Of a stretch of 43,106 nucleotides of DNA, positions 32,405 to 43,106 are shown piece by piece. How positions within the stretch are numbered: the stretch's first letter is position 1; every line of letters starts with the position of its first letter. The translations under genes were made by a program, and so were the position numbers. The notes under the pieces were generated by a model that had not been told where the DNA came from, made no database searches, and worked only from the letters and a program-made list of their open reading frames with translations. The stretch comes from a virus. The stretch spans positions 1 to 43,106 of the IMG/VR virus record IMGVR_UViG_3300020351_000003. One strand, 5' to 3'.

Positions 32405-33151
32405 ATGAGCAAAGCTAGAGAACTCGCAAATTTATTAGAAGCAGACGGGGATGTTATCTCAGCTAGCTTAGATAATGTACCTGCTTCTGATTGGACGACA
32501 TTATTAAATAAGCCCTCTCATGCAGATACAGATACTACTGATGCGAGTAATATCGGGAGTGGGACATTGCCAAATGCTAGAATATCCGCATTACCAACTA
32601 GCCAATTAACAGGAGCTGCAACAGATATTGTTTCTCATGGGTTAGCTGCAAGTGCAACTACTGATACTACAGATGCAAGTAATATTGGTTCAGGTACATT
32701 ACCTAATGCTCGAATATCTTCTTTGCCAACAAGTCAGTTAACTGGCGCAGTAACGTCTATTGCATCACATGGTTTAGCCGCATCTGCTACGACAGATACC
32801 ACTGATGCAAGTAACATTAGCAGTGGTACGATACCAACCGCTCGCTTGGGTTCTGGTACTGCTGGTTCAGGAAATTATCTTCGAGGTGATGGAACTTGGA
32901 CAACCAATTGTACAAATCATAGTAATTGTACGACAAATGGAAATGGTATGGCTAATTGTGCTAATTGCTCAGGTACAGATAGTTTTGGTAATTGTACGAC
33001 AAATGGTAAAGCAAATTGTGCGAACTGTTCAGGAACAGTAAGTGCCATTAGTTCACAAGTTAGTCATAGTAATTTTGGGTATAATTTTTCTGCGTGTAAT
33101 CCTAGTATTGGTGTGGGAACCCGAGCATGTGACTGTGCTTGTAACTGTTAA
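32405..33151 (+). CDS. Tail fibre with Cys/Asn-rich C-terminal domain
   Basis: 248 aa. Residues 43-150 hold three copies of a 44-residue fibre repeat (TTDASNIGSGTLPNARI then LPTSQLTG), followed by NYLRGDGTW, as in many phage fibres. From residue 168 the sequence changes: 12 Cys in 81 residues (169, 175, 185, 188, 197, 205, 208, 231, 242, 244, 246, 248). Eight of these directly follow Asn, within two copies of an NCTTNG...NCANCSGT unit, and the end is ACDCACNC. A Cys-dense tip on a secreted or virion fibre is unusual. With a SPASM maturase and oxygenases downstream it is the likely substrate for modification (inference). Confidence 0.85.
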   Translation: MSKARELANLLEADGDVISASLDNVPASDWTTLLNKPSHADTDTTDASNIGSGTLPNARISALPTSQLTGAATDIVSHGLAASATTDTTDASNIGSGTLPNARISSLPTSQLTGAVTSIASHGLAASATTDTTDASNISSGTIPTARLGSGTAGSGNYLRGDGTWTTNCTNHSNCTTNGNGMANCANCSGTDSFGNCTTNGKANCANCSGTVSAISSQVSHSNFGYNFSACNPSIGVGTRACDCACNC

Positions 33152-33166
33152 TAGGAGAACCTAATA

Positions 33167-34135
33167 ATGTTTAAAAATATGTATGACAGTCTTTCTTGTG
33201 GGGTTCATCTAGAATTACTAGTCTATGATGATAAAGTATGCCTTAAAACATGGTCTGAAATTAGTGAAAATGAATTCAATCAAGTAAATGTTGTTAATGA
33301 CTACACTGTAACACGTAGCTTAACTTTTTCTGGTGGTAATCCAAAATATATGGAATTTGTGAATGAAGCTAGTGGTGTATACCATAAGTATTTACCAACA
33401 GGATATATTTTTGGGGAGATGATCGAAGGTGAGAAATTTATTCCTAATATGCCTGCTAGTATTAGAGATAATTATGATCATTTAACAGGAACATATTGGA
33501 GAAATCATTCATATGCTTTAATTGATCCCACTGATCCTTCTATTCATGCAAGTGAAAAAGATGATGTAGCATGTTGGGCAGTAGGCGTTAAAAGTGATGA
33601 TCATGTTGTTAACCCATTTTATAATACGTTAACAGATACATTTCAAACAAAAGCGCATCCATTAAGATCGTTAAGAAAGTATACTGCTCCTGTATCATTA
33701 ATGCTATATCAACCATTTAAAACAGATAAATTTACCGATTGTTCTATGACATTTAAATACAATAAAGGATCTGGATTTAGTACGAATATTTTAGATGGGT
33801 GGACAGCGGGAACAGGATATGATTATTTAGATCAGATGGGAGATGCATTTCCTAATTTTGAAGTAACTTCTGGTGGTGGCGATATTGATGCTGGAGATAC
33901 TGATACAGTGAATTTTAAAATGGTTGATAAAGACGGTACAACCATTGAAAAAGATTCAACTTTATATTTAGAATCAACAGGAGGGTATTTGCCTAAAACT
34001 AGAGTAGATGTTACAAACGGTTTAGGATCGTTTAAAGTTACAGCATTAGGCTTGGTAGCTGATGACACATTTAAAGTAAAAATGGGTTTTCGAAATTACA
34101 CGGGTGTAAAAGATGTTAATTATACGGTTAAATGA
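33167..34135 (+). CDS. Putative receptor-binding/tail protein (322 aa)
   Basis: The N-terminal two-thirds is a mixed region with aromatic and acidic residues (TGTYWRNHSYALIDPTDPSIHASEKDD) and no recognised family. Residues about 235-322 look like an immunoglobulin-like domain (GGDIDAGDTDTVNFKMVDKDG, then TTGGYLPK-type strands and FKVKMGFRNYTGVKD). It lies between the Cys-rich fibre and the first oxygenase, whose start overlaps its stop as ATGA. It may be a second adhesin or another substrate of the enzymes. Confidence 0.6.
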   Translation: MFKNMYDSLSCGVHLELLVYDDKVCLKTWSEISENEFNQVNVVNDYTVTRSLTFSGGNPKYMEFVNEASGVYHKYLPTGYIFGEMIEGEKFIPNMPASIRDNYDHLTGTYWRNHSYALIDPTDPSIHASEKDDVACWAVGVKSDDHVVNPFYNTLTDTFQTKAHPLRSLRKYTAPVSLMLYQPFKTDKFTDCSMTFKYNKGSGFSTNILDGWTAGTGYDYLDQMGDAFPNFEVTSGGGDIDAGDTDTVNFKMVDKDGTTIEKDSTLYLESTGGYLPKTRVDVTNGLGSFKVTALGLVADDTFKVKMGFRNYTGVKDVNYTVK

Positions 34136-34908
34136 ACAAACCCGAACATATAGCATATTATGAAAGTCTTACGGATGAGCCAGAGGATTCTGTTCAACAT
34201 CCCCTAGATCAATTTGCAAAAATTGAACAAAAATTTGCAACTCCGTTTCTTGAAAGCGATACTGAGCTTCCCTCTAAAATGCGTCAGGATCTTATTCAAG
34301 TTCTTGAAAAGAAAGAGACGGCTCTGTCTGCACTAAAAGAAAGTGATCCAGAATTTTATGGGATGGCGGAAGCTAAAGGCTTTTATGCTACAACTCATTA
34401 CAATCTATTTGAAAATCCTTCTGAGTACCCCTTTGCCGAACAATCCATCCTTGAATTTGAACAAATTGCTTGTCAGATGATTCGTTACTACATCCGTAAA
34501 GGATGGGGAGTTCGTCAGGCTAGTGAATTACGATTAGAAGGACGCTGTTTTGGGAATGTTCAAATTCCTGGAGCCAGAACATATCCTCATTATCATCAAT
34601 CTGTTGATGGTGTTCTTGTACATTACTTGTCTATTGGGGATGGGGATTTTATGAAAGGGGCTGAGACATCTCCTCGACATGGAACACATAAAGTTTTATT
34701 TATGGATCCCCGCCCAGCAATTAATTATCCTTATTGGGAAAAGGTACATGCAGTTACTCCTAGAGTTGGATTAACACTAATTCATCCTAACTACCTATGG
34801 CATGAAACAAATCCTTGGTTGGGACAAGGAACACGAGTGTGTATAGTTGTAAATTTTCGTGTAATGTCTCATGGGTATAATGAACTAAGCCAACCTTTAA
34901 GAGGATAG
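34132..34908 (+). CDS. 2OG-Fe(II) oxygenase-like enzyme, paralogue A1
   Basis: 258 aa. The core has YPHYHQSVDGVLVHYLSIG (His153, His155, Asp159) and LIHPNYLWHETNP (His218, His224), then TRVCIVVNF with Arg235. This reproduces the H...D...H...R order of double-stranded beta-helix oxygenases. The segment VLFMDPRPAINYPY is shared with two further genes downstream, which form a family. Its N-terminus has about 90 residues of its own. Likely acts on the tail fibre; the reaction (hydroxylation or other) is unknown. ATGA overlap with the previous gene. Confidence 0.72.
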   Translation: MNKPEHIAYYESLTDEPEDSVQHPLDQFAKIEQKFATPFLESDTELPSKMRQDLIQVLEKKETALSALKESDPEFYGMAEAKGFYATTHYNLFENPSEYPFAEQSILEFEQIACQMIRYYIRKGWGVRQASELRLEGRCFGNVQIPGARTYPHYHQSVDGVLVHYLSIGDGDFMKGAETSPRHGTHKVLFMDPRPAINYPYWEKVHAVTPRVGLTLIHPNYLWHETNPWLGQGTRVCIVVNFRVMSHGYNELSQPLRG

Positions 34909-34909
34909 C

Positions 34910-35497
34910 ATGTCATATTGTGTTCATGAACTGTTTTCTGTTCCTCTTATTCATCTCCAATTTAACCAACATCATAAATATACGAATCTTCCCATTATTA
35001 GGAAAAAGGACAAAAGACCAGCAAATTGGACTATGTCAGTTAATACTTCTTACCCTAATATTGTAAAAGATGATGAATTTATTAGTTTGCATACTGCTAA
35101 TGAATTAAAGCTTGATATTAGTAATGCAATTACTACTGCATTTAAAGATATTAATATTTCTACCAATTTTAATATATTTTCTTTTTGGTACAATATTTAT
35201 CATGAACATCAAGGACAAGAACCACACAATCATATTGGGAATGTAAATCCCTATTGGTGTGGGACATACTATAATAAAAATGCAACACCAACGATTTTTT
35301 ATAAAGAACAAGGTATACGTGATATTCATATCATGCCAGATTGGGACGAAAGTAAACTTAGATTATCATTTACACCCGTTTCAAAAATTGATATGAACGA
35401 GGGGGATATTCTTTTATTTCCCCCATATCTTACGCATTCAGTTCCTGAACAGGAACAGTATAGAGTTACTTTTTCATTTAACCTTATTAGGAAATAA
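34910..35497 (+). CDS. 2OG-Fe(II) oxygenase, 2OG-FeII_Oxy_5 type
   Basis: 195 aa. It begins with CVHELFSVPLIHLQF, the start typical of this phage family (PF13759). EPHNHIGNVNPYWCGTYYN carries His106 and His108, GDILLFPPYLTHSV carries the distal His176, and QYRVTFSFN carries Arg185. The pattern is that of putative 2OG oxygenases found in many marine phages. It lies one base after paralogue A1 and one before A2. Substrate unknown. Confidence 0.82.
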   Translation: MSYCVHELFSVPLIHLQFNQHHKYTNLPIIRKKDKRPANWTMSVNTSYPNIVKDDEFISLHTANELKLDISNAITTAFKDINISTNFNIFSFWYNIYHEHQGQEPHNHIGNVNPYWCGTYYNKNATPTIFYKEQGIRDIHIMPDWDESKLRLSFTPVSKIDMNEGDILLFPPYLTHSVPEQEQYRVTFSFNLIRK

Positions 35498-35498
35498 T

Positions 35499-36245
35499 AT
35501 GTTTGAATCAGGGCCAGGTAAAGACTTACAAGTCACACATGAGTGGCCTACTATTATTGGTACCGAAATAATTGAACTACCCCAGATAATGAAAGATGTT
35601 CTTGTTAAAGTAATTAAAAGACAAGATAGCGTTTTTACAGAGCATACATATAATAAAACAAATAAAACTACGGCTGAATTAGCCGCATTTGACGAAAAAA
35701 TCTATAATATATTTGACTATTCACGTTATGATACAGAAGGAGAAATAACGCAGATTAAAGCATTTGAAAAAATTATGTCAAAAGTAATTAGAACTTATGT
35801 TACTGAAGCATGGCAAGTAGACCCACATGTAGAAATTAATGTTCGAGGTTTTGGTAATGTTCAGAATACATTTGGAAGAAGAACAGCACCTCATTTTCAT
35901 CATGGTTGGGATGGTGTTTTAGCTCATTATGTAACAGTAGGTAATGAATATGAATCGGATGTTCCCATGACGCCTATGGATACACCGTATAGTGGGCAAT
36001 TGTTATTATTAGATACACGACCAAGTACATGCATTCCTGATGGTGATGTCAGAAATGATGTTGTACGTTTAAATCCTGTTAATGGATTAACTGTTATTCA
36101 CCCTGGTTATGTATGGCATGAAACTCATACACATACTCAAACTGGGGATCGAGTTCTTGTTGCAATCAATTTTCATATATGGAATCGTAATTTTGATGAA
36201 CTACCAACATCTTTGGACAACTCCTATAGGCCAAGTTCAAATTAA
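35499..36245 (+). CDS. 2OG-Fe(II) oxygenase-like enzyme, paralogue A2
   Basis: 248 aa. RTAPHFHHGWDGVLAHYVTVG (His132, His134, Asp138), LLLLDTRPSTCIPD, VIHPGYVWHETHTH (His201, His207) and DRVLVAINF (Arg218). It aligns along its length with paralogues A1 and A3, including the FDYSRYDTEGEITQIKAFEK and SKVIRTYVTEAW regions, so the three arose by tandem duplication. It follows the previous gene by one base. Confidence 0.75.
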   Translation: MFESGPGKDLQVTHEWPTIIGTEIIELPQIMKDVLVKVIKRQDSVFTEHTYNKTNKTTAELAAFDEKIYNIFDYSRYDTEGEITQIKAFEKIMSKVIRTYVTEAWQVDPHVEINVRGFGNVQNTFGRRTAPHFHHGWDGVLAHYVTVGNEYESDVPMTPMDTPYSGQLLLLDTRPSTCIPDGDVRNDVVRLNPVNGLTVIHPGYVWHETHTHTQTGDRVLVAINFHIWNRNFDELPTSLDNSYRPSSN

Positions 36246-36888
36246 TCTTGATGAAGATTTAAGAAGATCTTTGGTTCAATGTGTTGTTCAGAACTACATT
36301 CAACGAATGGACGCACAAGAACCTGTGCCTTCATTTATAGATTTATTTGATTATACGCAATATGCACATCAAGATAAGTTAGAGATATTTAAAGCTGTGC
36401 ATAGGTTTGAACTAATTATTAGTAAAATTATTAGAACCTACGCTAAACAAGCTTGGAATATATCTTCTGACATACCAATAAGTATGCATTGTACAAGCAA
36501 AATTCATCAGCCCTTTGAAATGAGAGTAGAACCGCATAGGCATAATAGTACAGATATTTGCATAATTCATTACTTAACTGCTGGAGGTGAGTTTCATTTA
36601 GATAATCATAATCCTCCTGAGCCATTAAATAATGACTATAGTGGGGATTTGCTAATATTAGATCCTAGGCCAAATATTACATATCCTTACAATGAAAAAG
36701 CAAAAACATTTAGACCCCAAACTGGGACAACTATAGTTCATCCTGGGTATGTTTGGCATGAAACCCACCAACATACCAAGGATGGGTTACGAATTTGTTT
36801 AATTGTTAATGCTGAAATAGATAGAGAATCCAAAGTACATCCATCTTTACAACAATTAATTAAACTACGTCCAGTGAGCCTCGTATGA
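36196..36888 (+). CDS. 2OG-Fe(II) oxygenase-like enzyme, paralogue A3
   Basis: 230 aa from the ATG at 36196. A longer in-frame reading would add 29 residues inside A2 with no similarity to the family. RVEPHRHNSTDICIIHYLTAG (His114, His116, Asp120), LLILDPRPNITYPY, VHPGYVWHETHQH (His182, His188) and LRICLIVNA (Arg199). Its sequence FIDLFDYTQYAHQDKLEIF matches A2. The start lies 50 bases inside A2, and the stop overlaps the radical SAM gene by 4 bases. The ribosome binding site is weak, so coupling is likely. Confidence 0.72.
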   Translation: MNYQHLWTTPIGQVQINLDEDLRRSLVQCVVQNYIQRMDAQEPVPSFIDLFDYTQYAHQDKLEIFKAVHRFELIISKIIRTYAKQAWNISSDIPISMHCTSKIHQPFEMRVEPHRHNSTDICIIHYLTAGGEFHLDNHNPPEPLNNDYSGDLLILDPRPNITYPYNEKAKTFRPQTGTTIVHPGYVWHETHQHTKDGLRICLIVNAEIDRESKVHPSLQQLIKLRPVSLV

Positions 36889-38255
36889 AATTTAAATTAT
36901 TATTAGAAAAAGCTGAAAAAGAATTAATTCTGATTTATGACAATATGACATCAGAATTAAGGTATGAAAATGGTGATATTGTTATTCCTCAAAATGAATT
37001 TGTGAATTGGGAACCTTTTTATAAGATGGATGCGGGTAAACGAAATCTTGTTAAAATTAAAATTCAGCTTGGATTAAAATGTAACTATTCTTGTACATAT
37101 TGTTCTCAGCGGTTTGTTCCAAGAAATCCTGGTGACAACCCCCAAACCTATGAATCTGTAGATTTGGATGCTATTAATACGTTTATTAAACGATTTGACA
37201 CAATTAGTATAGGTGAAACTATTCATTTTGAAATGTGGGGTGGGGAGCCATTTATGTATTTTGGCAGTATGAAGCATATTACTGAGCAACTTCATAAAAA
37301 ATTTCCACATGCTACGTTTAGCGTTATTACGAATGGATCTCTTTTAACTGATGAAATAGTGGAGTTTTTATTTAAGCACGGGTTTTCTGTCTCCCTTTCG
37401 CATGATGCGGTAGGTCAGGAGACTAGGGGACGTGATCCTTTAGATAATGCGGATTCAAAACGATTACTATTTAAATTACGTAATGCATTAGTTCCTCAAG
37501 GAAAATTTTCTGTTAACACGATGATTCATAAAGATAATGACTCCCGAGCGGATGTTCAAAAATGGATTAAAAATGTTTTTGGAGTAGTTCCTATTGGGGA
37601 AGCTGGAACAGTTGATGCTTATGACGAAGGTGGCACAGCAATGTCTTGGCAAACACCTGAAGAGCATATTGCGTATAGAAGAAAAGCTTTTAATGAAATT
37701 ATGAATGGAAAATTAAAACCTGTTCAAATGGACATTGTACCTCGAAAAATTGAAGGGTTTATTTCCACCCTAAAGCAACAGACCCCAGCTAGTTCCTTAA
37801 TGCAAAAATGCACAATGGATCGTCCTGATGTAATGGCAGTAGATCTCAGTGGAAATGTCACGACCTGTCAAAATGTAACAGCATCAAGTCAAAATATGGC
37901 AGGAATTTCCCATAAAATTGGGCATATGGATGATTTGGAAAGCGTCAATATAGCAACAGGAACACATTGGTCAGATCGGGAAGAATGCCCAAAATGCCCT
38001 GTACTTCATTTATGCCAAGGTGCTTGTTTATTCTTGCCTTCTGGCTCACAAGAATGGAAACTTTCCTGCGATAATTCATATTCCGATAATGTTGTCTGGT
38101 TAGCTGCTAGTTTATATGAGCTTACGGGGCATATCTTGTATCGTATTGAAAATGACGAATTACCTGAATATAGAAAAGACATATTTGGCTTTAATACAAC
38201 AAAATATGCTGTGGAGGATGAAAATAGTGCTAAGATATTAGCAGGTAAAGCATGA
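36885..38255 (+). CDS. Radical SAM protein with SPASM domain (peptide/protein maturase)
   Basis: 456 aa. The radical SAM cluster motif CNYSCTYC gives Cys66, Cys70 and Cys73. WGGEPF at 118-123 is the SAM-binding GGEP motif, and VITNGS follows at 147-152. The C-terminus is a complete SPASM domain: Cys309-X13-Gly323-X4-Cys328, then Cys368-X2-Cys371-X5-Cys377-X3-Cys381, then Cys395. These are all seven ligands for two auxiliary iron-sulfur clusters. SPASM enzymes modify peptides or proteins (thioether, C-C links, formylglycine). Here the likely substrate is the Cys-rich fibre (inference). ATGA overlap at both ends. Confidence 0.93.
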   Translation: MKFKLLLEKAEKELILIYDNMTSELRYENGDIVIPQNEFVNWEPFYKMDAGKRNLVKIKIQLGLKCNYSCTYCSQRFVPRNPGDNPQTYESVDLDAINTFIKRFDTISIGETIHFEMWGGEPFMYFGSMKHITEQLHKKFPHATFSVITNGSLLTDEIVEFLFKHGFSVSLSHDAVGQETRGRDPLDNADSKRLLFKLRNALVPQGKFSVNTMIHKDNDSRADVQKWIKNVFGVVPIGEAGTVDAYDEGGTAMSWQTPEEHIAYRRKAFNEIMNGKLKPVQMDIVPRKIEGFISTLKQQTPASSLMQKCTMDRPDVMAVDLSGNVTTCQNVTASSQNMAGISHKIGHMDDLESVNIATGTHWSDREECPKCPVLHLCQGACLFLPSGSQEWKLSCDNSYSDNVVWLAASLYELTGHILYRIENDELPEYRKDIFGFNTTKYAVEDENSAKILAGKA

Positions 38256-41388: not shown

Positions 41389-42028
41389 CTTTTTTCACGA
41401 AATATTTTCTGTTCCTCTGTGGATAGGGAATTTTTATCGAAAAGAATCAAACGATAGAATTTTAGGTTTGGTCGAAGAGTTTAGAAGAGGAAATAAGAAC
41501 GCTGCCTTAGTAGGCAACGAATGGAATTACAAAACCATTACTGATAACAAAGATCTACAGGCCGAAACAGGCGTAACATCTTATGCCACCGCAAATTTAA
41601 CACAAATTCCCGATTGGTTTCCAACAGTTCTAGAATTGCAAGCGTGGTCGCATCAAATGATCTCTACTATCTGGGATGTAGATCGAATTATGGGTCAGAT
41701 GACAATTAGTAATATGTGGACTACTATTTATCCAGAAAAGTCTTTTGTTCCTGAACATACTCATAATGGAAGTATGATTTCAGGGGTCTACTATGCAAAA
41801 GCTCACGAAAATTGTGGGGATCTTGTTTTTCACGATCCAGCGTGGGTTGCAAAATCTATGGTACTAAACAGCGGAACTACTTTCCCAATTAAAGGCACTA
41901 AGCAAAAAGTAAGTCCCAAAACAGGAGATCTTATTTTGTTTCCTTCTTGGCTACCTCATTCAACTGAATTTAATGAGACAACTGAAGATAGAATAATAGT
42001 GAGCTTTAATTTTCAATTTACTTCTTAA
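41378..42028 (+). CDS. 2OG-Fe(II) oxygenase, 2OG-FeII_Oxy_5 type, apparent AUA start
   Basis: The family N-terminus FFHEIFSVPLWIGNFY is encoded from 41390, but the open frame upstream has no ATG, GTG, TTG or CTG before an in-frame stop. The best start is ATA at 41378 after AGGGG; a TTG at 41468 would lose the conserved start. The core is standard: VPEHTHNGSMISGVYYAKA (HxH), GDLVFHDP, GDLILFPSWLPHSTEF (distal His) and DRIIVSFNFQF (Arg). 216 aa in this reading. Substrate unknown. A sequence error in the start codon is the alternative. Confidence 0.8.
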   Translation: MKNNFFHEIFSVPLWIGNFYRKESNDRILGLVEEFRRGNKNAALVGNEWNYKTITDNKDLQAETGVTSYATANLTQIPDWFPTVLELQAWSHQMISTIWDVDRIMGQMTISNMWTTIYPEKSFVPEHTHNGSMISGVYYAKAHENCGDLVFHDPAWVAKSMVLNSGTTFPIKGTKQKVSPKTGDLILFPSWLPHSTEFNETTEDRIIVSFNFQFTS

Positions 42029-42047
42029 ATATCCATAAAGATAGGTG
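42020..42047 (+). repeat. 28-bp repeat, copy 2, before an oxygenase gene
   Basis: The second copy of the 41348-41375 element (three differences). It overlaps the stop codon of the upstream oxygenase and ends at the GTG start of the next one. The same placement before two related genes argues for a shared expression signal or for tandem duplication of the unit. Confidence 0.6.
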
Positions 42048-42605
42048 ATACAGCATAATACATTTGCAGAAACTGTAGGAATCTACAACGGTGAGCAATC
42101 TCTCGTAGGCTCTACTGTAACTTATATTTACCAGTTAAAACATAAGTACCCCGAATCCGATGGTTATTCTAACCACGGGGGCTGGCAAAAAGAGTTAGAC
42201 CTAGACCATCCAATAAAACATACTATTCTAAAGCAATTCAAAGAATACCTTAAATGGTATTGCGTAGAAGAACCTCGATGGATGGACTGTACCAGTTTAT
42301 TTTGTAATGTAAATCCACCAGGTTCATCTAATGTAATGCATCATCATAAAGTAGGGGAATTTAGTGGTGTATTGTGGTTACAAGCAGAAAGCAACTCTGG
42401 CGATATTGTGGTAATGAACCCATTTTATAATAGATTTATGAACACATGCATTAAGTCACTTGAAAGGGACTATAATGCCCTGTATATAACACCTGAACCA
42501 AATAAAGGGGCATTCTTTAATAGTAATTTAGTTCATTATGTTGATATCAATAGATCGCAAACAGATAGGATTTCAATAGGTTATAATATCGGAATTCACT
42601 ATTAA
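42045..42605 (+). CDS. 2OG-Fe(II) oxygenase-like protein (186 aa)
   Basis: GTG start at 42045 directly after an in-frame TAG; the following ATA aligns with the proposed ATA start of the upstream paralogue. SNVMHHHKVGEFSGVLWLQAES gives the metal-binding His cluster, GDIVVMNP the usual 'GD..+.DP' strand, GAFFNSNLVHYV the distal His, and TDRISIGYNIG the Arg. It fits the 2OG-FeII_Oxy_5 layout, though the acidic metal ligand is not obvious. It converges on the next gene with a 4-base overlap. Confidence 0.72.
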   Translation: MIQHNTFAETVGIYNGEQSLVGSTVTYIYQLKHKYPESDGYSNHGGWQKELDLDHPIKHTILKQFKEYLKWYCVEEPRWMDCTSLFCNVNPPGSSNVMHHHKVGEFSGVLWLQAESNSGDIVVMNPFYNRFMNTCIKSLERDYNALYITPEPNKGAFFNSNLVHYVDINRSQTDRISIGYNIGIHY

Positions 42606-43106
42606 TTCTGTAACCCCCATATTTGTATAGAAAATCTAGGAGTTGCAATATAAGGTGAAACTGTAGTAACTGTATGTAATTCAGCAGCTTCGTTAACAAC
42701 CATCATATTTTGTTTAGGGCATATTGCTTTAAAAATATAATCTGTTTTTTCTTCTTTGTCTTTCCAAATAAAAAATCCTCCACAATTAGCATCTATTGAA
42801 TTTAAATAAATAGTTGCACCGAAACTGTAGTGGGGATCATTATGAATATCAATATTACTCAATTTATTCCACATATAAAATTGATATACAATTTCTTTTG
42901 TATTTGATGGAAAATAGGTTTTATTCAGTGCATTATTTAATTGAATAGCTAAATTTTGAGGTATGTATGCTACTAGCACATCACCACAAGCACCCTTGTT
43001 TACTCCCTTCCATATGAATGTTGAAGAGCCCCAAACTCGTTCTCCTAACATAGAGTTTAATTGAGCACTACAGTCAAGGAGTAATTGTCGTGGTAATACA
43101 TCAGTG
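42602..43106 (-). CDS. 2OG-Fe(II) oxygenase-like protein (5' truncated by window edge)
   Basis: The frame stays open to the window edge; 168 codons including the stop are visible, so an internal ATG at 43049-43051 need not be the start. KLSNIDIHNDPHYSFGATIYLN gives the HxD pair, and CGGFFIWKD the following strand. AAELHTVTTVSP gives the distal His, and TPRFSIQIWGL the Arg. This is a prolyl-hydroxylase-like fold. It is on the minus strand, convergent with the preceding oxygenase, so it belongs to another transcript that enters from the right. Confidence 0.78.
   Translation of the reverse strand, partial: TDVLPRQLLLDCSAQLNSMLGERVWGSSTFIWKGVNKGACGDVLVAYIPQNLAIQLNNALNKTYFPSNTKEIVYQFYMWNKLSNIDIHNDPHYSFGATIYLNSIDANCGGFFIWKDKEEKTDYIFKAICPKQNMMVVNEAAELHTVTTVSPYIATPRFSIQIWGLQN

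Follow-up and report, generated by a model that had tools for sequence, protein, structure and literature searches.

The virus record IMGVR_UViG_3300020351_000003 (43,106 bases; hereafter the window, meaning the whole stretch of DNA that was analysed) carries at positions 32405-38255 seven plus-strand genes encoding a tail fibre, an adhesin-like accessory protein, four proteins of the 2-oxoglutarate (2OG) oxygenase type, and a radical S-adenosylmethionine (SAM) enzyme with a SPASM domain. Comparison with related loci shows that a fibre ending in a (CX)nC tail is encoded together with a dedicated SPASM enzyme, an immunoglobulin (Ig)-like accessory protein, and, often, 2OG oxygenases. Because this association is with a specific C-terminal feature and extends across unrelated fibres, phage types, and hosts, we interpret the genes as a module for fibre maturation whose SPASM enzyme would modify the Cys tail, thioether cross-linking being the most likely reaction. 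Judging from the sequences, we assign this reading a probability of about 0.72.

Co-occurrence of the cysteine tail and the SPASM enzyme

A scan of viral contigs with the window enzyme as a single sequence gave no confirmed relative, and relatives were found by scanning with an alignment (profile), which matched 80 viral loci and 41 loci in bacterial genomes. In addition, tblastn detected a 42% identical enzyme in the Achromobacter phages JWF and 2-1. The enzyme-first set comprised 118 loci on viral and bacterial contigs, falling into 83 clusters at 90% enzyme identity, 72 of which had at least 3 kb of upstream sequence. Nearly all enzyme loci with enough upstream DNA contained between one and four fibre-like genes whose products end in CXCXC, and a gene with a Cys tail, with a Cys tail followed by a Hint domain, or with a Cys-rich CXC run lay within 9 kb in 66 of the 72 non-redundant loci. 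Among the six loci outside this count, L029, L072, and L081 had degenerate tails (ACNCAGGACDCG, WNCNCY, and CSACACKK), and L042 had only 3.6 kb of upstream DNA.

The reverse search made no use of the enzyme: the viral collection was scanned with two DNA patterns, each describing a tail that closes with CNC and a stop codon. Some contigs were shared by both searches, so the samples are not fully independent, although the selection rules are. This tail-first search yielded 82 new loci, 77 of them with a real open reading frame (ORF) ending in CxCxCNC and a stop. The enzyme was present within the retrieved DNA in 57 of these 77 loci, always on the same strand and downstream, with a median gap of 1224 bases. 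As for the other 20, eight contigs revealed the enzyme when the whole contig was searched (in one case as a fragment at the contig end), locus L201 lies on the same contig as the enzyme-containing locus L032, and the 11 tail loci without the enzyme are on contigs cut off no more than about 2.5 kb from the tail. Every contig with enough sequence 3' of the tail carries the enzyme on the same strand. The initial annotation had proposed that the modifying enzymes act on a Cys/Asn-rich fibre; the co-occurrence test, in which tail and enzyme were seldom apart in either direction, supports this proposal, but the oxygenases turned out to be optional.

Carriers of the module include the siphovirus JWF, genomes of Burkholderia and Rhodobacteraceae, and contigs of marine origin. 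Its loci were assigned to Pseudomonadota and also to contigs of metagenome-assembled genomes labelled Bacteroidota, Planctomycetota, and Prosthecobacter, for which the binning may be wrong. Several copies of a module in the order 2OG-tail-2OG-enzyme were found beside fibre-like genes in one cultured strain, Thalassobacter stenotrophicus CECT 5294 (L106, L114, L117, and L122).

The C-terminal tail of the fibre proteins

The universal feature of these fibres is the terminal (CX)nC tail, in which X is mostly Asn, Ala, or Asp. The initial annotation had instead emphasised a Cys/Asn-rich tip; its counts of 12 Cys and eight Asn-Cys pairs are correct for the fibre at 32405-33151, and the NC repeats are real and frequently precede the tail in related fibres, but they are not the shared hallmark. 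Among the enzyme loci, the residues between tail Cys were Asn (418), Ala (130), and Asp (45), any other residue occurring at most 11 times. In the protein bodies upstream of the tail, Asn preceded 167 of 238 Cys (52 non-redundant tail proteins), against an Asn share of 9.5% of body residues. The motif C.C.C was found in the last 14 residues of 109 of 6165 same-strand ORFs versus 5 of 6921 opposite-strand ORFs in the enzyme loci, and the tail codons varied synonymously (TGT 436 and TGC 357; AAC 312 and AAT 249). Chance or low-complexity Cys runs are ruled out by the use of both codons for each residue together with the strand specificity.

The scaffolds ahead of the tail were highly diverse, forming 52 groups at 60% identity with lengths from 72 to 891 aa. 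Three fibre relatives (L092, L093, and L077) matched tail fiber or tail PHROGs, and seven others compared had no match. The window fibre itself showed only a weak match, to phrog_2012 (minor tail protein, E 0.012), and its gene position is homologous in loci L006-L020. Tail fibre genes lie immediately upstream of the gene at 32405, the preceding one matching phrog_8469 (tail fiber protein, 1.7e-16), so that by family match or by place among tail genes these proteins are phage tail fibres. No match was obtained by megablast of the region or when the fibre was searched by tblastn against named phages. Three or four tandem fibre-tip genes, each with its own Cys tail, precede one enzyme gene in L017 (3707-5884), L018 (4637-5998), L022 (6857-7728), and L035-L038, possibly providing alternative or heteromeric tips. 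A phage-encoded ribosomally synthesized and post-translationally modified peptide (RiPP) of the bacteriocin type was also considered and is ruled out, since the substrates are fibre-sized, lie among tail genes, and in several cases match fibre families.

A variant with a Hint domain

In the JWF fibre, NCNCDCNCNCSC is followed directly by a Hint domain (CFPAGT..; PF05203, 3e-12, residues 308-344), which starts with a Cys right after the CXC run. The window fibre has no Hint domain and carries a stop codon in its place. The Hint-type version was found in Achromobacter phage JWF and in Burkholderia loci. In a quick tree of the enzymes, the Hint label changed at least six times on well-supported branches; as the domain also begins immediately after the CXC run, the two endings, stop and Hint, seem to be exchangeable. 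Self-cleavage at the first Cys is a known ability of Hint domains of this type, so that in Hint-type phages the Cys tail would be released as a new C-terminus. A fibre of either form would then terminate in a Cys tail, which would explain why the tail is found either at the extreme C-terminus or directly before Hint.

The gene order in JWF is fibre, a 240 aa gene, and enzyme, with no oxygenase annotated in between. The enzyme homologue of this phage (L001, 8944-10308) is annotated as an anaerobic sulfatase-maturating enzyme (anSME), but the annotation of the surrounding 19 kb lists no sulfatase.

The radical SAM-SPASM enzyme

The window enzyme contains the CX3CX2C motif at residues 66-73 and seven SPASM Cys at 309-395, and its SPASM domain scored 32.3 bits against the TIGR04085 cut-off of 27. 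With PF04055, TIGR04085, and ten cluster Cys all present, the SPASM radical SAM gene is complete, as the initial annotation had stated. Since all ten Cys are kept in 114-115 of 115 relatives, the protein is expected to be catalytically functional and to hold two auxiliary clusters. Two enzyme copies per locus were observed in L079 (1672-4015), L083 (7713-11365), and L134, and in L121 (3340-12796, Halomonas sulfidaeris) the homologue is fragmented, its pieces forming several short ORFs close to both a tail ORF and a Hint fibre, a pattern that looks like a decayed copy or an assembly error.

The best NCBIfam matches were PapB (NF047865, 65.7 bits), a geopeptide maturase model, QhpD (TIGR03906, 61.4 bits), and the anaerobic sulfatase maturase model (61 bits). 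None of the curated SPASM maturase cut-offs (PapB, QhpD, anSME, SCIFF, geopeptide, and others) was reached, the best score being 65.7 against 340 bits, with 453 for QhpD and 349 for anSME. In the AlphaFold model (pLDDT 86.2), the nearest solved folds found by Foldseek were anSME (4k36, the nearest), CteB, ChlB, and TigE. These neighbours in sequence (the PapB, QhpD, and anSME models) and in fold (the CteB and ChlB structures) modify peptides or proteins.

QhpD offers the best precedent: it is a SPASM radical SAM enzyme that puts Cys-to-Asp/Glu thioether bridges into a structural protein subunit, the gamma subunit of quinohemoprotein amine dehydrogenase, and not into a small precursor peptide (PMC8172795). 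The window enzyme differs in falling far below the QhpD cut-off, and the proposed substrate here is a phage fibre with a (CX)nC tail, there an enzyme subunit. The ranthipeptide maturases PapB and CteB (PDB 5wgg), which are the best NCBIfam match and one of the nearest solved folds of the window enzyme, likewise have a Cys-rich ribosomal substrate encoded beside a SPASM enzyme. Sactipeptides and ranthipeptides have a short precursor with a removable leader, however, and no such precursor was seen here, where the substrate candidates have the 72-891 aa noted above. Similarity to anSME comprises the fold and the name given to the JWF homologue, and it does not extend to an annotated sulfatase neighbour in JWF or to a sulfatase-type site (CxPxR or CxAxR) in the tail. 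The enzyme also matches PHROG 1802 (radical SAM domain-containing protein, 7.4e-54), of which the JWF protein is a member, but that annotation is generic and gives neither a function nor a link to fibres.

The 2OG-type oxygenases

The initial annotation had listed four 2OG-type enzymes. All four match phrog_81 and the Pfam model 2OG-FeII_Oxy_5 (PF13759), whose gathering cut-off was passed clearly by the genes at 34132 and 34910, barely by that at 36109, and missed by that at 35499. The HxH...H metal site was conserved in a local family alignment of 140 sequences (H 96%, H 79%, and H 99%). Many module phages encode one to five 2OG-type oxygenases. Among loci with at least 3 kb upstream, 33 of 47 stop-type loci had 2OG genes in the interval from tail to enzyme, versus 0 of 14 Hint-type loci; the oxygenases are thus an optional part of the proposed modification system. 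Rhodobacteraceae loci also have 2OG genes between tail and enzyme, with an enzyme only about 35% identical to that of the window. Generic marine-phage oxygenase clutter is ruled out by these bacterial genome loci. Asp made up 24% of the CXC X-residues in stop-type loci without oxygenases versus 3% in those with oxygenases, and 11% in Hint loci, a difference that may reflect phylogeny.

Outside the module, two further PF13759 genes (41468-42028 and 42045-42605, both on the plus strand) lie 3-5 kb downstream in the window, followed by a sub-threshold 2OG-FeII_Oxy_3-like gene at 42602-43051 on the minus strand.

The accessory protein and the layout of the module

The second adhesin-like gene, at 33167, is not a chance neighbour but a conserved component of the module. 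The AlphaFold model of its product (pLDDT 92.6) has a strand-rich Ig-like fold, and the C-terminal part resembles Ig/Big-type domains, with matches to Ig-type folds in PDB and to uncharacterised phage proteins in BFVD. In JWF-like loci the accessory gene is of another kind, represented by 12 ORFs. The accessory protein is probably a virion structural partner or an assembly factor of the fibre.

The seven genes are tightly coupled (Table 1), in agreement with the initial annotation. In gene order, the first four junctions are a 15-base gap, a 4-base ATGA overlap, and two 1-base gaps; the last two are a 50-base overlap and a 4-base overlap into the enzyme gene. The 50-base figure assumes that oxygenase 4 starts at the ATG at 36196, and the overlap becomes 137 bases if it begins at the first ATG, 36109. 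The window also contains an N4-like RNA polymerase match, a DNA polymerase, and a large terminase.

Table 1. Features of the fibre-maturation module proposed for the window
Feature	Position	Strand	Support
Tail fibre / receptor-binding tip protein, proposed substrate, 248 aa	32405..33151	+	ORF; weak phrog_2012 match; follows tail fiber gene
NC-rich segment (NCTNHSNCTTNGNGMANCANC...), residues about 168-211	32906..33037	+	Sequence; similar segments in L007 and L017
C-terminal (CX)nC tail ACDCACNC, conserved hallmark	33125..33148	+	Sequence; similar tails across nearly all enzyme loci and in the enzyme-blind pattern scan
Accessory protein, 322 aa, Ig/Big-like C-terminal domain	33167..34135	+	91 homologous ORFs in the loci; model; sub-threshold Pfam Phage_tail_NK, 8.2e-4
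2OG-Fe(II) oxygenase-like protein 1	34132..34908	+	PF13759, 3.8e-8; phrog_81, 2e-10
2OG-Fe(II) oxygenase-like protein 2	34910..35497	+	PF13759, 1.7e-9; phrog_81, 3.5e-24
2OG-Fe(II) oxygenase-like protein 3, below Pfam cut-off	35499..36245	+	PF13759, 4.5e-4; phrog_81, 6e-7; HxH...H pattern
2OG-Fe(II) oxygenase-like protein 4, start 36109 or 36196	36196..36888	+	PF13759, 4.8e-6; phrog_81, 7.5e-14
Radical SAM-SPASM enzyme, 456 aa	36885..38255	+	PF04055, 3.9e-13; phrog_1802, 7.4e-54; TIGR04085

Proposed mechanism and alternative explanations

In the mechanism that we propose, the radical SAM enzyme would act on the tail Cys and the NC sites before or during fibre assembly. Cys sulfur would most likely be joined to a carbon of a neighbouring Asn, Ala, or Asp, on the same or another chain of the trimer, giving thioether cross-links. 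The oxygenases would hydroxylate residues of the same fibre, for which Asn is the obvious candidate, although this role is the weaker part of the interpretation. The outcome would be a receptor-binding tip that is covalently locked or chemically unusual, which might serve stability or receptor contact, as the initial annotation had proposed.

Several observations weigh against this interpretation. We infer both the chemistry (thioethers and hydroxylation) and the substrate, the latter from gene association. Within one chain, adjacent Cys in CXC would give very small rings; thioethers would therefore need to link different chains or to pass over residues. The nearest solved fold is that of anSME, an enzyme that makes formylglycine and not thioethers. 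Loci L110 and L116 carry the enzyme without a recognisable tail, L116 retaining the accessory gene. No winged helix resembling a RiPP recognition element (RRE) is visible in the enzyme model, whose N-terminus has short strands only, and no RRE profile search was run. Finally, the oxygenases are often absent: the interval from tail to enzyme contains none in 14 of 47 stop-type and all 14 Hint-type loci.

The fold and the anaerobic sulfatase maturase score would also fit an enzyme that oxidises fibre Cys in the manner of anSME, by a two-electron reaction giving formylglycine or a similar carbonyl, with no cross-link and with a reactive tip that bonds host-surface groups. We consider this improbable, as PapB and QhpD, both thioether formers, score equal or better, a run of alternating Cys is not what an enzyme that oxidises single residues would be expected to act on, and the sulfatase-type motifs are missing from the window tail and from the other tail tips listed. 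Another explanation is that the Cys/Asn tail is mainly a metal-binding tip whose ligands are tuned by the enzymes (e.g., by Asn/Asp hydroxylation), mimicking siderophores or loading metal. The tip of the T4 gp37 fibre has HxH iron-binding sites, so that alternating ligand residues near a fibre tip have a known parallel, and published work describes iron in phage tails as well as the Ferrojan Horse hypothesis (PMC11705849). Alternating residues could, as with HxH, all point inward in a trimeric fibre, and the low Asp share beside oxygenases is a hint that Asn and oxygenases associate. That share is confounded by phylogeny, however, and the Hint loci, without oxygenases between tail and enzyme, have an intermediate value. 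The fibres here differ from gp37 in that the alternating residues are Cys, not His, and lie at the very C-terminus, and in that a dedicated radical SAM enzyme accompanies them. Metal binding alone would not need this enzyme, which is yet nearly universal; this explanation therefore seems unlikely to a similar degree.

The enzymes and the fibre might also merely be passengers of one variable host-recognition cassette, in which case the former would act on host surface molecules or metabolites and not on the fibre. The host-recognition regions of marine myophages collect unrelated genes, including "radical SAM" cassettes and glycosyltransferases, and the available portion of the pelagimyophage study that reported these cassettes draws no link to fibre modification (PMC7029224). 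The two PF13759 genes outside the module in the same window would be in line with such a cassette. Nevertheless, the link is to a specific C-terminal feature and not to fibres in general, both search directions show it, and it spans unrelated fibre scaffolds as well as the siphovirus, bacterial genomes, and marine contigs described above, which makes mere co-travel very improbable.

Novelty and significance

As far as we searched, SPASM-dependent maturation of ribosomal Cys-rich substrates is known, and the fibre substrate, the virion context, the Hint alternative, and the partnership with oxygenases are new. No literature linking radical SAM enzymes to phage fibre maturation was found in PubMed Central (PMC); preprints and subscription papers lay outside this search, and such an absence is no proof. 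Our results suggest that unrelated phages chemically remodel the host-contacting part of their fibres in a way not described before. The broader proposal has, in our estimate, an even chance of being correct: that a widespread, undescribed virion maturation exists in which dedicated radical SAM enzymes, with help from 2OG oxygenases, covalently cross-link or otherwise remodel the Cys tails of trimeric receptor-binding fibres, with a Hint domain exposing the tail in some phages, so that these fibres would be giant RiPP-like proteins. Since one member of the group, Achromobacter phage JWF, is in culture, mass spectrometry could address the question directly.

The choice of cells that a phage can infect depends on its receptor-binding fibres, whose chemistry is usually taken directly from the sequence. 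If the proposed maturation is true, it would add a large class of protein substrates to radical SAM chemistry, and, being common to unrelated phages of marine, freshwater, and other bacteria, it would mean that the predicted structures of their fibre tips are wrong in an important respect.

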